23,326 nt of DNA from a virus: positions 1 to 23,326 of IMG/VR virus record IMGVR_UViG_3300042434_000776, one strand, 5' to 3'. The notes under the pieces are model-generated. The model made no database searches and had not been told where the DNA came from. It saw nothing but the letters and a program-made list of their open reading frames with translations. Positions 9,641 to 21,698 of the stretch are shown here, one piece after another; position 1 is the stretch's first letter, and each line of letters starts with the position of its first letter. The translations under genes were made by a program, and so were the position numbers.

Positions 9641-9857
9641 ACAGGTCTTGACTACCAAAATAATTACAGAAATAGATCTTTCTATAGATAATTTAAGAGA
9701 TATTATTGTTAGTCATCTTAACAAAGAAGGTATCAGTGGTAAAGCCTGGGATTTTAATTTTAGAGTAGTAAATAAGCCAATCAACAGCAGTCTATATCCA
9801 TCTGATAGTATTGATCGTTATGAATTTGATGGAGTAAAAGTAATAGTATCAAAATGA
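9624..9857 (+). CDS. Small hypothetical protein, 77 aa, GTG start
   Basis: The only start giving a full frame is GTG at 9624, with AAGGATT upstream at 9611. Beta-rich: VLTTKIITEIDLSIDNLRDIIV, then a Gly-rich turn and strands DFNFRVVNKP and EFDGVKVIVSK. It may be a small beta-sandwich or ferredoxin-like domain. Coupled to the next gene by ATGA. Confidence 0.55.
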   Translation: MKIQNKQVLTTKIITEIDLSIDNLRDIIVSHLNKEGISGKAWDFNFRVVNKPINSSLYPSDSIDRYEFDGVKVIVSK

Positions 9858-10213
9858 ATAATAAAATTTTTAACAGTTATGACGAAGCCCAAAGTTATAG
9901 TTTAACTGTACCCTGGAAATTAACCACCTGTAATGTTGGAGAAGAATGTTGGTGCAGAATTATACTACCCACAGAAAAGATACTATATAAGAATAAAGTG
10001 GGCGATACCGAAAGAGTTGATGAATTTGAATATATTATTCCAGATGGAAGCGTAGATAAAGAAACGGCTGAATATATTGTAGAATTACACAATAGATCAG
10101 TAGCCATATATACTGGTCAAAAAGAAAGATTAGCAATTTTAAAAGAATTAAATAGACTAGATCAAGAACTGGGAATTGATATACCGGTAATTAAAAGGAA
10201 AGAGATTGATTAG
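9854..10213 (+). CDS. Hypothetical protein, 119 aa
   Basis: Starts MNNKIFNSYDEAQSYSL, a beta region with CNVGEECWCRIILP, then an acidic stretch and a long helix (EYIVELHNRSVAIYTGQ and KERLAILKELNRLDQEL). It lies directly before the antitoxin-domain gene, so it was examined as a possible toxin partner, but it shows no RES-type or other toxin signature. Ends in TAG; function unknown. Confidence 0.6.
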   Translation: MNNKIFNSYDEAQSYSLTVPWKLTTCNVGEECWCRIILPTEKILYKNKVGDTERVDEFEYIIPDGSVDKETAEYIVELHNRSVAIYTGQKERLAILKELNRLDQELGIDIPVIKRKEID

Positions 10214-10220
10214 AATTCCA

Positions 10221-10406
10221 ATGAAAACCACAGACGAACTTAAAGAAAGACTAAAAAGAATAGTTCAAGAAGAAGTTATTGATGCTTGGTTAGACTCTCC
10301 TAATCCAGCATTTAATAATAAAACTCCACGACAAATGGTTATAGAGCAAAATACCTCTCAAATAGAGGCTATGCTATATAGACTAGAGGGCGGAATACCG
10401 GGTTGA
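10221..10406 (+). CDS. Stand-alone MbcA/ParS/Xre-type antitoxin domain, 61 aa
   Basis: After a short helix (residues 1-19) the chain reads DAWLDSPNPAF (21-31), KTPRQMV (34-40) and IEAMLYRLEGGIPG (48-61). This matches the toxin-binding C-terminal domain of MbcA/ParS/Xre antitoxins (DUF2384), whose pattern is W-L-x-x-P-N-P-x-L/F...T-P, then a helix and 'L-x-R-x-x-x-G'. Those proteins usually carry an N-terminal DNA-binding helix-turn-helix and neutralise RES-domain NAD-degrading toxins; both are missing here. The true start is taken as ATG 10221; the stop TGA lies in the -35 box of P6. Confidence 0.75.
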   Translation: MKTTDELKERLKRIVQEEVIDAWLDSPNPAFNNKTPRQMVIEQNTSQIEAMLYRLEGGIPG

Positions 10407-10430
10407 CAAACGGAAAATTTCTGTTAAACT
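10403..10430 (+). promoter_or_regulatory. Promoter P6 with spacer palindrome
   Basis: TTGACA (10403-10408), 16 nt, TAAACT (10425-10430). The spacer holds the inverted repeat ACGGAAA-A-TTTCTGT (one mismatched pair) at 10410-10424 in place of GCCGAT. It overlaps the stop of the antitoxin-like gene. Confidence 0.7.
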
Positions 10431-10439
10431 ACACCTACC

Positions 10440-10616
10440 ATGAGTACCGATAAACAAATTAATGTTGGTCAGGAGTTGGTCGAAAGACTACAAAATCTGA
10501 ACAAAATGCTGGACGCTGTTAGATCAGCACAGTTTGATGAGTTGAATCTTCCAGAAATAAACGAACAAAATAAATCTACTGTAAAGCCTAAAAAATTGCC
10601 CAAAAGAAAGAAATAA
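10440..10616 (+). CDS. Small basic-tailed helical protein, 58 aa
   Basis: ATG follows P6 so closely (10 nt after the -10 box) that the mRNA would be leaderless or nearly so; no Shine-Dalgarno is visible. Helical N-terminal half (GQELVERLQNLNKMLDAVRS), then a polar linker and a basic tail (KPKKLPKRKK). Possibly a nucleic-acid-binding accessory protein. Confidence 0.6.
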   Translation: MSTDKQINVGQELVERLQNLNKMLDAVRSAQFDELNLPEINEQNKSTVKPKKLPKRKK

Positions 10617-12449: not shown

Positions 12450-12578
12450 ATGTATGAGCCTGACCCAGTATTTAAATTACTATTTTGTTTAGTAGCAACC
12501 CTAGCAACTTTAGGTATGATAACACTATTATGTCTTATGGGACTAGGAGTATGGAAATTTGTGGAAATGATATCATGA
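12450..12578 (+). CDS. Tiny membrane protein, 42 aa
   Basis: One long hydrophobic helix (residues 8-36: FKLLFCLVATLATLGMITLL and following) after a short acidic N-terminus. ATGA overlap with the next gene, which is also a membrane protein, so the two may form a pair. The 29 nt before it hold only a weak purine stretch (AAGAAAG). Confidence 0.55.
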   Translation: MYEPDPVFKLLFCLVATLATLGMITLLCLMGLGVWKFVEMIS

Positions 12579-13033
12579 AGATATACTATGAATTAGCAAT
12601 AATTGCTACTATAGGACTTTTGCTGTGCTTACTGGTGCTAAATCCTTTACATCAGAAGAATCTTAAAAAAGATAAACCTCCACTATTAATCTGTATGTAT
12701 TGTAAAGGTACTGGAGAAAGAGTGGAAGATGTAAATAAACTCATGTTTATGGCAAAGGTGCAACTTTATTTTAATAAACATATGATGGTTGACAAATGCG
12801 AAAAGTGTATTAAATTACCCAATGGTGAATATGATTATTGCGATGAAGTGAAAGAAAAATATAATAGTTTTTTCAAAGACTATGAAAAAGAAGGATCAAA
12901 ATTTGAGAAAACAATGTGCGGAGAATGTATGGGTGCTGGTCAATTTCAAATATTAAGTAAAAATCCCAAAACAAATAAATGGTACACTCAAGAAAATTAT
13001 GAAGAAGATGAGCGAGCAAAAACCAATGAATAA
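12575..13033 (+). CDS. Membrane-anchored CXXCXGXG zinc protein, 152 aa
   Basis: Start at 12575, coupled to the upstream TGA; an in-frame ATG at 12485 lies inside the previous gene. N-terminal anchor (about residues 6-24), then cysteine motifs: C40-M-Y-C43-K-G-T-G, C75-E-K-C78 and C115-G-E-C118-M-G-A-G. The first and third are the CXXCXGXG repeats known from the DnaJ zinc domain, here separated by a long helical insert, with no J domain. Likely binds one or two zinc ions; role unknown, possibly protein binding at the membrane. Confidence 0.7.
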   Translation: MKIYYELAIIATIGLLLCLLVLNPLHQKNLKKDKPPLLICMYCKGTGERVEDVNKLMFMAKVQLYFNKHMMVDKCEKCIKLPNGEYDYCDEVKEKYNSFFKDYEKEGSKFEKTMCGECMGAGQFQILSKNPKTNKWYTQENYEEDERAKTNE

Positions 13034-14550: not shown

Positions 14551-14726
14551 ATATAGACGATTATATTAATAAATTACTATCAGAGATTGAGCATTTAAAA
14601 TCTGTGAATGAGTCTTTACGCAAAGAAATAAGAACTCAAAGAGCAGAAATTGCACAGTATAGAAATACGATCAATGTATTACTAGATAGTGATAAACCAC
14701 CAATGTATCAGGCTAGGACAGCATAA
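14544..14726 (+). CDS. Short coiled-coil protein, 60 aa
   Basis: Leucine-based heptads from about residue 5 to 45 (DYINKLLSEIEHLKSVNESL, RKEIRTQRAEIAQYRNTINV), then a short Pro/Met/Tyr tail. Likely a dimerising adaptor. Its stop shares one base with the next start (TAATG). Confidence 0.6.
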   Translation: MVDIDDYINKLLSEIEHLKSVNESLRKEIRTQRAEIAQYRNTINVLLDSDKPPMYQARTA

Positions 14727-15346
14727 TGCTAAATATTAAAAAACAGCCATATAATAGCGTTTGGATTTGGGCCGATTCTCAAGATGAATTAGGCTTAACC
14801 TTTATGCGTTTTCAAGAACACTATGAAAGTGATAATCCTAAATTTCGTAATAATATTTTCACTGTAGGACAATTACGACACTGGTATTCTGAAACATATG
14901 GGGCTAATAATTATCATAATACATGGATTGGATTTAATTTTCCTAGTAAGGTATTAATTCCTTTTAAGGAGGGCTTATTTGATCCATTAACTCCAGAAGA
15001 AAATAGACTGTTAGAATTGTTACGCTATCGTAAAGATGAATTCTATATTATAGGCGCTCAAAATAATAGCGTTTTACGACATGAACTATCTCATGCCTTA
15101 TATGCCAGTAATCCAAAATATAAAGCAGAAATAGATAACTTTTTATACAAACATAAGTCTAAATTAACTAAAACAAATCAATATATCTTGAATAAGGGCT
15201 ATTGTAAAGATGTATTAAATGATGAAATACAGGCTTATATTACAGATAATGATGACAATGAATTGATCAATGTTACTTGTCCAACAATAATTGCTGGTAT
15301 CAATCAAATATTTAATAAATATAACAAAGCAAAGGTGAAGAAATAA
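14726..15346 (+). CDS. HExxH metallopeptidase-like protein, 206 aa
   Basis: Residues 117-126 read LRHELSHALY, giving the zinc motif H119-E120-L-S-H123. DEIQAYI at 166-172 provides E167, 44 residues after the second His, in the position expected of the third ligand in gluzincin-type peptidases. The N-terminal 110 residues have a WIGFNFPSKVLIPF strand region leading into the helix. Phage proteins with VLRHELSHALY-type motifs are known as hypothetical; the target could be a host protein or a phage precursor. No signal peptide, so cytoplasmic. Confidence 0.7.
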   Translation: MLNIKKQPYNSVWIWADSQDELGLTFMRFQEHYESDNPKFRNNIFTVGQLRHWYSETYGANNYHNTWIGFNFPSKVLIPFKEGLFDPLTPEENRLLELLRYRKDEFYIIGAQNNSVLRHELSHALYASNPKYKAEIDNFLYKHKSKLTKTNQYILNKGYCKDVLNDEIQAYITDNDDNELINVTCPTIIAGINQIFNKYNKAKVKK

Positions 15347-15832: not shown

Positions 15833-16084
15833 ATGTTCGTTTGGACTGAAATAAGACGTTGGGCCAAGTCTCATGGCTACGAAACATTAAAAGACAAAGG
15901 CGACGAAGAAAACGGAGACAAAGTACAGTATTATTGGAGTAAAATTGACGATCCATCTTGTAGTGGCGTCAGTCCTAGTGTGAGTAAACTCGCTAGAGAT
16001 ATATATAATGATATTACTGATGGTGCTTGGATTGACCATCAAATAGCCCATAAGGAATCAGTAGATGAACGTAAAATTAGTTAG
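15833..16084 (+). CDS. Hypothetical phage protein, 83 aa
   Basis: Start ATG 15833 with AGGAG upstream; a longer TTG form from 15812 would include the ribosome site. Contains WTEIRRWAKSHGY, a polar loop, YYWSKIDD, SVSKLARDIYNDITDGAWID. The Y-x-W strand and the helix 'LARDIYNDIT' look like a conserved small phage protein of unknown role. Overlaps thyX by 20 nt. Confidence 0.65.
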   Translation: MFVWTEIRRWAKSHGYETLKDKGDEENGDKVQYYWSKIDDPSCSGVSPSVSKLARDIYNDITDGAWIDHQIAHKESVDERKIS

Positions 16085-16712
16085 TGTAACTCCAGACGCA
16101 GAAAAAACTATGGCTTATTGTGCCAGAGTGTCCAACCCAAACAACCAAGGTTCAGATAATTATGCTAAATTACTGAAATATTGCATTGACCATCAACATT
16201 GGAGCATATTTGAGATGGCATTTGTTACTCTAGAAATTAATACTACAAGAGGATTAGCAGCACAGATTCTCAGGCATCGTAGTTTTACTTTTCAAGAATT
16301 TTCTCAAAGATATGCTGATACAACTCTTTTAGCAGAAGATATTCCGTTGTTTGAGTTGCGTAGCCAAGATCATAAAAATAGACAAAATAGTATAGATGAT
16401 GTTTCTCCAGAAATTAAATCTAAATGGACTATGCAAGTTCGTGAGCATTTTGCTAAGGCTAAAGTGTTATACGATGGAATGATAGCAGATGGTATCGCTA
16501 AAGAATGTGCCAGATTTATTCTTCCTTTAGCAACTCCAACCCGTCTTTATATGAGCGGTAGTGTTCGTAGTTGGATTCATTATATTAATTTGCGTTCTGG
16601 TCATGGAACTCAAAAAGAACATATGAATATTGCTAATGAATGTAAGCAAATTTTTATTGAACAATTTCCTACTATTTCAGAATCTCTTGGGTGGAAAAAT
16701 GAAAACATTTAA
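16065..16712 (+). CDS. thyX: Flavin-dependent thymidylate synthase ThyX, 215 aa
   Basis: Makes dTMP from dUMP using FAD, NAD(P)H and methylene-tetrahydrofolate, supplying thymidine for phage DNA synthesis. The family signature RHR-x7-S-x-R is present at residues 70-82 (RHRSFTFQEFSQR). HWSIFE (45-50) corresponds to the conserved H-x-S...E region, and the C-terminal R-S-W-I-H-Y-I-N-L-R and HGTQKEH segments fit the nucleotide/flavin-binding end. Full length for the family. It starts within the previous gene and lies in the operon of P7, just before the repair gene. Confidence 0.97.
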   Translation: MNVKLVSVTPDAEKTMAYCARVSNPNNQGSDNYAKLLKYCIDHQHWSIFEMAFVTLEINTTRGLAAQILRHRSFTFQEFSQRYADTTLLAEDIPLFELRSQDHKNRQNSIDDVSPEIKSKWTMQVREHFAKAKVLYDGMIADGIAKECARFILPLATPTRLYMSGSVRSWIHYINLRSGHGTQKEHMNIANECKQIFIEQFPTISESLGWKNENI

Positions 16713-16881
16713 TATTACAGCACAGGTTTACAAGAATAATGATCGTTCAAAACAGAATCTATTAATTTGTGAATTTCATACTGGTTCATCATCTGATGAA
16801 GCATTATCTAATTTTAAACTACATTTTCCTGTTATAGAATATTCTCTTGTAAAAGTTCTCTCAGTTGAAGAAATTGTTTAA
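16699..16881 (+). CDS. Small hypothetical protein, 60 aa
   Basis: Starts in the last codons of thyX, after GGTGGAAAA. Strand-helix-strand layout (FNITAQVYKNNDRSKQNLLI, SSDEALSNFKLHF, YSLVKVLSVEEI). A single small alpha/beta domain; unrelated to thymidylate synthesis by sequence. Last gene before promoter P8. Confidence 0.55.
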   Translation: MKTFNITAQVYKNNDRSKQNLLICEFHTGSSSDEALSNFKLHFPVIEYSLVKVLSVEEIV

Positions 16882-16889
16882 GAACACGC

Positions 16890-16917
16890 TTGACTCTGGC
16901 CGATAATCTGATATACT
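16890..16917 (+). promoter_or_regulatory. Promoter P8 (GCCGAT type)
   Basis: TTGACT (16890-16895), 16 nt with GCCGATAA at its fourth base, TATACT (16912-16917). Drives the UV endonuclease gene; AAGGAG follows. Confidence 0.8.
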
Positions 16918-16934
16918 GCGACCAAGGAGATTTT

Positions 16935-17852
16935 ATGAATAGATTCGGCCTCTGTTGTATTTCGCTCAAACTCAAAGAGCAAGGTATTAGTCATCAGACA
17001 ATGACTTTTAAGCGTTTTAATAGTTTGCCAAGAGAAGAAGCACTAACTATTCTTGGCGAACGTATTCTTAATAATCTTGTTACTACTCGTAAGACTATTG
17101 AATTTTGTGGCGAGAATAATTATGTTTATCGTGTAAGTAGCGATATTTTTCCGCTCATTACATACAATGAAGCCAATGTTAATCTAGATGATTTGCCGAA
17201 CCATGATGATATTCAAGATGAGTTCGACAATATTGAACAGAGCATTAAGGATGCTGGTGTTCGCGTATCTTGCCATCCATCAGAGTTCAATGTTCTTGCT
17301 TCTACAAATCAAAAAGCAGTAGATAAAACTATTACTGAACTTAATTTTTACAGTAGTTTTTTTGACAGAATTGGTTTGCCTGCTAATTATGATTCCCCCA
17401 TGAATCTTCATGTGCATAATAAAAATGGAACACACTCTGAAATCATCGAACGCTTCATGCAAAACTTTAATCGCCTGGACGATAATTGTAAGGCTAGGCT
17501 TGTTATTGAAAATGATGACAAAATCAACTGCTGGAGTGTGAGAGAATTGATAACTCATTTTCATCCAAAAACTAATATTCCTATCACTTTCGACTATCTT
17601 CATCACAAGTGCCATCCAGATATGCTGGATGAAGAAACTGCTATTAAGGCTTGCCATGATACATGGCATGGACATAAGCCATTATTTCATTATAGCGAAA
17701 GCAGAGAAGGGAATAATCCTAGAGCGCACGCAGATTATGCTTATAATAAATTTCAGACGTATGGACTAGAGTTTGATGTTGATATGGAACTAAAAGCAAA
17801 ATGCCTCGCTATTGCTCAATATGAGTCATCGGTGCTATGTCAAGAAGTGTAA
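16935..17852 (+). CDS. uvsE: UV-damage endonuclease (UVDE/UvsE family), 305 aa
   Basis: Nicks DNA beside UV photoproducts as the first step of an alternative excision repair. The TIM-barrel family hallmarks are visible in order: RFGLCC at the N-terminus, VSCHPSEF (H114), NLHVHNK (H159), LVIENDD (E192), ITFDYLHH (D220, H223), FHYSESRE (H252) and DVDMELKAK (E285), which fit the metal-binding His, Glu and Asp set of the bacterial enzyme. Start at ATG 16935 behind AAGGAG, downstream of P8. Length is normal for the family. It overlaps the HNH gene by 16 nt. Confidence 0.95.
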   Translation: MNRFGLCCISLKLKEQGISHQTMTFKRFNSLPREEALTILGERILNNLVTTRKTIEFCGENNYVYRVSSDIFPLITYNEANVNLDDLPNHDDIQDEFDNIEQSIKDAGVRVSCHPSEFNVLASTNQKAVDKTITELNFYSSFFDRIGLPANYDSPMNLHVHNKNGTHSEIIERFMQNFNRLDDNCKARLVIENDDKINCWSVRELITHFHPKTNIPITFDYLHHKCHPDMLDEETAIKACHDTWHGHKPLFHYSESREGNNPRAHADYAYNKFQTYGLEFDVDMELKAKCLAIAQYESSVLCQEV

Positions 17853-18283
17853 AAGAAACTATAATCAAAAAATTAAACAACTTTAAAGGCCACAGAGATA
17901 ATTATAAAAAGAAACCCAAATACATCCCTGTTCCTTCTAAAGAAAAAGATATACACACAATACTAAAAAATAAAATTGTTCGATTTCATAGAGATAAAAA
18001 ACTGTGGAAGTATCCTCCTATGACATTTAAAGTAAAAGATTTATTGGAGAAAATTGGTGACAATCCAGTGTGCTACTTAACTGGTAGAAAAATAGATTTA
18101 TTAGACGGTAAATCGTATCATTTGGATCATATTATACCAAAGAATAAAGGTGGTACTAATACATTAGATAATTGTAATATTGCTTGTAAGGATGCTAATC
18201 AAGCAAAAGGTAATTTATTGTATTCTGAATTTATTCTGTTGTGCGAAACAGTATTGACTCATCATAAAAATAAAGGAAATTAA
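17837..18283 (+). CDS. HNH endonuclease, 148 aa
   Basis: Basic N-terminal 70 residues (probable DNA binding), then an HNH nuclease: CYLTGRKIDL (79-88), YHLDHIIPKNKGG (94-106), TLDNCNIACKDANQAKGN (109-126). DH at 97-98 and the later Asn residues form the beta-beta-alpha-metal site. In phages such enzymes are usually homing endonucleases, though some act in packaging or host DNA degradation. It begins inside the last codons of uvsE, which may mark an insertion that kept the neighbour intact. Confidence 0.85.
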   Translation: MSRSVKETIIKKLNNFKGHRDNYKKKPKYIPVPSKEKDIHTILKNKIVRFHRDKKLWKYPPMTFKVKDLLEKIGDNPVCYLTGRKIDLLDGKSYHLDHIIPKNKGGTNTLDNCNIACKDANQAKGNLLYSEFILLCETVLTHHKNKGN

Positions 18284-20989: not shown

Positions 20990-21069
20990 GCTCCTGTGCC
21001 AGTGGTTCCTGGCAATTACTCTTATAAGGTAATCCGAAAGGGGACTTGGTTCGATTCCAAGCAGGAGTA
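20990..21069 (+). tRNA. tRNA with anticodon UAU (reads AUA), long variable arm
   Basis: Acceptor GCTCCTG pairs with CAGGAGT (one G-U); D-arm GCCA/TGGC with GG in its loop; anticodon stem TTACT/GGTAA, loop CTTATAA giving anticodon UAU; T-arm CTTGG-TTCGATT-CCAAG; discriminator A, CCA not encoded. The variable region is 12 nt with a CC-GAAA-GG mini-hairpin, as in class II tRNAs (Leu, Ser, bacterial Tyr), not in usual tRNA-Ile. The loop differs at one base from that of tRNA-Leu(UAA). Amino-acid identity is therefore open: Ile by codon, Leu by shape. Confidence 0.85.
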
Positions 21070-21339: not shown

Positions 21340-21693
21340 GGGGGCGTAATGGTATCGACTGGATATGGAAGATTGTATTAGCAAGTAGTGGTTAATCGAC
21401 CGGCCACTTTAAAAGTCGATTAAATGCTTTAACTGGCACAAATCAGTTAGCCCTTGCTGCTTAATTAAATAGCAGCAACAATCTTAGAAAGCGATGAAGG
21501 TAGCGTTCAAAAGATTGTCGTAAAATCCTTCGGCTGCTAGAATAGCCAACGGGTTCTAGCCTGAGATTAGTTGGTACGGAAAGATGAATGTTGTTTGTTC
21601 TTTAATCTTTCTTAAAATTTATGAATAAAATAAACTTGTAGAAAATGTAATTAGAAATATCACAGCACGGCAGTTCGACTCTGCCCGCCTCCA
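21340..21693 (+). ncRNA. ssrA: tmRNA (transfer-messenger RNA)
   Basis: Rescues stalled ribosomes and tags the unfinished protein for degradation. One-piece form: 5' GGGGGCG (21340-21346) pairs with CGCCTCC (21686-21692), discriminator A, CCA not encoded; T-arm GGCAG-TTCGACT-CTGCC. After GGTATCGACTGG comes pseudoknot 1 (AGTGG with CCACT; AATCGAC with GTCGATT). The tag frame starts at GCT 21426: ALTGTNQLALAA, stop TAA 21462-21464, in the loop of a GCTGC/GCAGC hairpin as in other tmRNAs. Length of about 354 nt is normal. The tag ends LAA, the usual protease signal. Confidence 0.95.
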
Positions 21694-21698
21694 CTTTT

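Follow-up and report, generated by a model that had tools for sequence, protein, structure and literature searches.

Why should a virus carry a domain of the antitoxin type as a protein on its own? The question is raised by a small gene in a viral record 23,326 bases long, the whole of which is termed the window below. The preliminary description of the locus had assigned its product to the PF09722 (DUF2384) toxin-binding domain, and a profile search against that family was named beforehand as a test that could refute this.

The gene encodes an isolated Xre/MbcA/ParS C-terminal domain

10221–10406, + strand: 61-aa PF09722-domain gene (PF09722 match, 20 viral homologues, AlphaFold2 model)

The translation of the open reading frame is MKTTDELKERLKRIVQEEVIDAWLDSPNPAFNNKTPRQMVIEQNTSQIEAMLYRLEGGIPG. 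Nearly all relatives retain its ATG start and the N-terminal sequence MKT[TS]DELKERLK; a start at the in-frame TTG at 10206 would lengthen the protein by five amino acids. The motif passes the profile search, and the assignment stands. Pfam PF09722 (Xre_MbcA_ParS_C) matches with 34.7 bits (cut-off 24.5, E = 1.8e-8), and residues 17–58 of the protein align with positions 10–51 of the 51 in the profile, i.e. to its very end. The NCBIfam model Xre_ParS_antitoxin gives a weak match of 24.2 bits (cut-off 90). When all PDB sequences were searched with a profile of the family and its relatives the top three were MbcA, ParS and Xre. AlphaFold2, run on the family alignment, confidently predicts a three-helix domain (mean pLDDT 89) with helices at residues 4–24, 36–43 and 45–55, of which the last residues of the protein are the least certain. 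In structure-only comparison, which is weak here, Foldseek and VIA-align returned only Xre and MbcA chains and none significantly, Foldseek E values being 1–3 and all VIA Z scores below 2. A search of PHROGs found no meaningful match for the gene, and PADLOC matched neither the phage protein nor the antitoxin and RES toxin of L023. The protein is thus an isolated Xre/MbcA/ParS C-terminal domain, and it is conserved within a lineage of large phages.

Conservation among phages

Scans of IMG/VR revealed a copy on 20 further viral contigs, 66–92% identical, and in all but one (L002) it is a separate small gene. Pairwise dN/dS of the homologues against the copy at 10221–10406 is about 0.1–0.4 (0.10–0.38), and 29 positions are invariant among 14 aligned copies. 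Close relatives have one PF09722 gene per record as a rule. Given the 20 homologues on other phage contigs and the purifying selection acting on them, the open reading frame is a real gene. The record has no DNA similarity to known phages, and other proteins of the window have relatives in huge uncultured phages and in Lak phages.

On L002 (5506–6186) a DnaJ-like zinc protein, a homologue of that encoded at 12485–13033 of the window, precedes the domain without a break in the reading frame. This is either a natural fusion or a lost stop codon.

A movable cassette

The gene is flanked by the following features.

9854–10213, + strand: u119, the 119-aa gene on the 5′ side, which marks the left cassette border; no meaningful family match
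10403–10430, + strand: promoter-like TTGACA-N16-TAAACT, with 0.04 expected by chance
10440–10616, + strand: d58, the 58-aa gene on the 3′ side, which marks the right cassette border; no meaningful family match

The first hexamer of the promoter-like element overlaps the stop codon of the 61-aa gene, and d58 follows the element. In most relatives the element is kept 3′ of the 61-aa gene, and it is also present at both of the empty sites found. There (L239 and L229) the 119-aa gene runs directly into the same element, and nothing of the cassette is seen. The gene immediately 5′ varies among the relatives, being the 119-aa gene, a 90-aa gene, a zinc protein or a 61-aa gene, and at least four different upstream genes occur in this position. 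Because of these multiple upstream contexts and the two clean empty sites at the same promoter-like element, we conclude that the 61-aa gene is a movable cassette. The simplest reading is that it has been gained or lost as a unit, in either direction. Among contigs sharing a marker gene, all possibly incomplete, the cassette is present in 11 of 34 and absent from the other 23, and the idea of a core gene was rejected on that count. By eye, d58 resembles the N-terminal part of a 119-aa protein encoded at 1464–1823 of the window.

No RES or HTH partner was found

A RES–Xre module has a RES gene beside the antitoxin and a helix–turn–helix (HTH) N-terminal to the toxin-binding domain, and neither is found at 10221–10406. 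No RES gene (PF08808) was detected in 28 phage records, comprising that of the window and 27 related ones; most of these are fragments, and five are huge phages of 462–642 kb. Nor was an HTH found in the flanking genes that were scanned, and the 61-aa protein is the C-terminal domain alone. The earlier remark that neither a toxin gene nor an HTH lies nearby therefore holds for the available whole records and scanned flanking genes, most records being fragments.

The lack of a partner in the phages, together with the patchy presence of the gene, is what might be expected of a functionless relic of a captured RES–Xre module. Yet 20 homologues have remained intact, with dN/dS of 0.1–0.4 and in several gene contexts, and we regard such a relic as scarcely likely at all.

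Most of the closest bacterial relatives adjoin RES genes

Bacterial relatives were sought with a profile made from the phage sequences only, applied to 392 genomes of Planctomycetota, the sole phylum searched in depth. The nine best matches (G344, G111, G380, G397, G290, G345, G275, G024 and G349) have E values from 2.9e-11 to 5.3e-5. A RES gene is found in only 34 of the 392 genomes, and by coordinates one adjoins seven of the nine matches (G344, G111, G380, G397, G275, G024 and G349), where the antitoxin is either convergent with the RES gene or on the same strand. The genomes of the remaining two, G290 and G345, contain no RES match, and none was seen in the metagenome-assembled genome of L022. 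With a mixed profile RES lies beside seven of nine strong matches, or six of eight when the seed locus G111 is left out.

The similarity extends to the end of the chain. The planctomycete protein L055 aligns without gaps across all 61 residues, and N-terminal to the aligned region it has sequence resembling an HTH. In the antitoxin relatives the match runs through to the final residues of the phage protein, and most of them share with it an unusual G-x-P-x C-terminus: G-I-P-G/D, G-E-P-T or similar in the phages, and G-A-P-N, G-I-P-A, G-V-P-S, G-V-P-G, G-N-P-G, G-Q-P-T and G-T-P-I in the close bacterial relatives. The exceptions are one RES-less relative (G-I-A-S) and the more distant, RES-paired G024 (G-G-F-G). 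The RES proteins beside the relatives share a stretch of the type D-[LV]-[LI]-x-G-x-G-x-R-x-x-[GS]-x-R-W, so that the G-x-P-x antitoxins and their RES neighbors look like one coherent RES–Xre subtype. In Planctomycetota this subtype (L055, L070, L073–L077) has its antitoxin convergent with or downstream of the RES gene.

Given the adjacency of RES to seven of the nine best matches, the end-to-end alignment and the G-x-P-x tail, the phage protein most likely arose by excision of the toxin-binding domain from one subfamily of RES antitoxins. Profile and shared C-terminal end place it in the G-x-P-x subfamily; a domain tree of 62 columns does not place the phage rows, neither resolving the phage group nor separating it from the SEC-C type of protein described below, and was set aside as evidence of placement. 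Profiles and gene neighborhood thus make an origin in this subfamily well supported, and the descent from RES-paired antitoxins that had been assumed at the outset gains support from the phage-only search. The closest bacterial copies found, in a search deep in Planctomycetota, are planctomycete.

PF09722 also occurs in RES-less proteins

How specific is PF09722 for RES antitoxins? The family also matches near or at the C-terminus of planctomycete proteins of ∼500–560 aa, one with a SEC-C motif, in genomes such as G027 and G169 that have no RES match, and it is present in a SEC-C protein of Methylomonas. Across L043–L049 and L063 it likewise falls on the C-terminal part of RES-less proteins of ∼500–560 aa, some having SEC-C motifs. 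For these RES-less proteins the ‘toxin-binding’ of the Pfam name may mislead. Since RES-less and SEC-C proteins match as well, PF09722 is no proof of RES binding, and we therefore compared profiles directly. The phage sequences score 46–59 bits on an HMM of RES antitoxins against 22–33 bits on one of the SEC-C type, the former being higher in 17 of 17. The RES-antitoxin HMM was built from nine mostly RES-adjacent antitoxins and is not fully clean, as it includes L055 of the closest subfamily and L066 with no evident RES; the phage-only search is its clean counterpart, and there the SEC-C-type proteins come only after the nine best matches. These proteins also continue for some 20–40 residues beyond the shared end of the phage protein and the antitoxins. 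With its lower score on their profile and no such extension, the phage protein does not group with the SEC-C type, and a SEC-C origin, as suggested by a T-P-R motif, is not favored.

Distant copies of the domain are found in huge phages, LR756511 (L024) and L025/L026, where they end proteins of 223–227 aa with a CxxC...HH...CxxC pattern and have the tail G-[QE]-F-x.

L024, 3500–4171: zinc-finger-like protein with a C-terminal distant copy of the domain; no Pfam match
L025, 5488–6171: zinc-finger-like protein with a C-terminal distant copy of the domain

These fusions keep alive the reading that the 61-aa protein is a RES-independent adaptor, a descendant of the antitoxin fold now making protein–protein contacts within a phage or host complex, as the copies in SEC-C metal-binding proteins and in the zinc-finger fusions might do. 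The in-frame arrangement on L002, the RES-less proteins of G027 and G169 and the SEC-C protein of Methylomonas would fit, and by eye the phage W-L-D-x-P-x-P and T-P-R motifs resemble the SEC-C type, from which the tree does not separate them. Against this stand the profile scores, better for RES antitoxins in each of the 17 phage sequences scored, and the lower rank and C-terminal extension of the SEC-C-type proteins, and we consider such an adaptor rather unlikely.

A probable inhibitor of RES toxins

We think it probable that the 61-aa protein acts as a free inhibitor of RES toxins, this being its likeliest function. An ancestor would have acquired the toxin-binding half of a RES antitoxin and lost the half that binds DNA. 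The phage domain would bind the RES toxin of the host, its C-terminal helix and G-x-P-x tail entering the NAD-binding cleft as in known RES–Xre pairs; NAD+ would then be spared and infection could proceed. Having no HTH, the protein would leave the host operon unrepressed. In the NatR–NatT pair, NatR extends its C-terminal helix into the groove of the active site (PMC11535050), and a C-terminal antitoxin helix in the toxin cleft is likewise predicted for GndX–GndR (PMC12457610). The phage protein corresponds to the part that sits in the NAD cleft in RES–Xre pairs, and nothing more; the ParS entry of 72 residues in the PDB is itself named an antitoxin fragment by its depositors.

The preliminary description also proposed an anti-defense role, which would be a further step. 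The fuller account, which we find plausible without quite leaning towards it, is that RES–Xre is an anti-phage defense in some bacteria, and that the gene encodes an anti-RES protein, made from an excised toxin-binding domain of the subfamily, which has travelled between large phages as a movable cassette. Two points count against the anti-RES reading: deletion of natT left susceptibility to more than 50 Pseudomonas aeruginosa phages unchanged, and as of 2024 RES systems were not implicated in immunity (both PMC11535050).

Might the protein, rather than simply neutralizing toxin, steer a host RES–Xre operon, for example through competition with the HTH-bearing antitoxin and consequent derepression, or by stabilizing the toxin? 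Higher-order Xre–RES complexes are needed for repression in P. putida (PMC12204516), and NatR both inhibits and stabilizes NatT (PMC11535050). More toxin activity would seem harmful to a lytic phage, however, and we judge steering distinctly improbable.

Comparison with known systems

The toxin-binding domain of the RES–Xre antitoxins MbcA, ParS, XrePp and NatR (PF09722) is homologous to the phage protein, and like it MbcA and XrePp end three residues past the conserved glycine. In contrast to these antitoxins the phage protein has no HTH and no RES gene, and its tail is G-x-P-x where theirs is G-x-F/Y-x. The planctomycete G-x-P-x proteins of Xre type beside RES (L055/L069, L070, L073–L077) are the closest relatives found, differing in having a RES gene next to them and extra N-terminal sequence, which in L055 includes an HTH.

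If RES inhibition is indeed its function, the 61-aa protein would resemble the phage antitoxin mimics AdfB of ICP1, which acts against DarT (PMC11481870), and T4 AdfA and Dmd, in which a small phage protein replaces an antitoxin. Those proteins are directed at other toxin families and have been tested experimentally. Nip of phage Phi3T, an inhibitor of the TIR NADase SpbK (PMC11984713), is likewise a phage block on an NAD-consuming effector, although the enzyme it acts on is of the TIR type.

What RES toxins do physiologically is a matter of debate. A conserved, partnerless RES-antitoxin domain in phages hints indirectly that phages encounter at least one RES subfamily during infection, and phage-borne pieces of antitoxins may point more generally to those toxin–antitoxin systems that are defensive. 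The analysis supplies a defined 61-aa protein along with specific candidate RES partners.

Other features of the record

The window contains several further genes. A protein with a HELSHAL motif, possibly a zinc metallopeptidase, is encoded at 14726–15346 and has no Pfam match. ThyX, a UvdE-type UV endonuclease and an HNH endonuclease lie in a row at 16065–18283. A tRNA-Ile(tat) gene is located at 20990–21069, and a tmRNA gene with the tag GTNQLALAA at 21340–21694.
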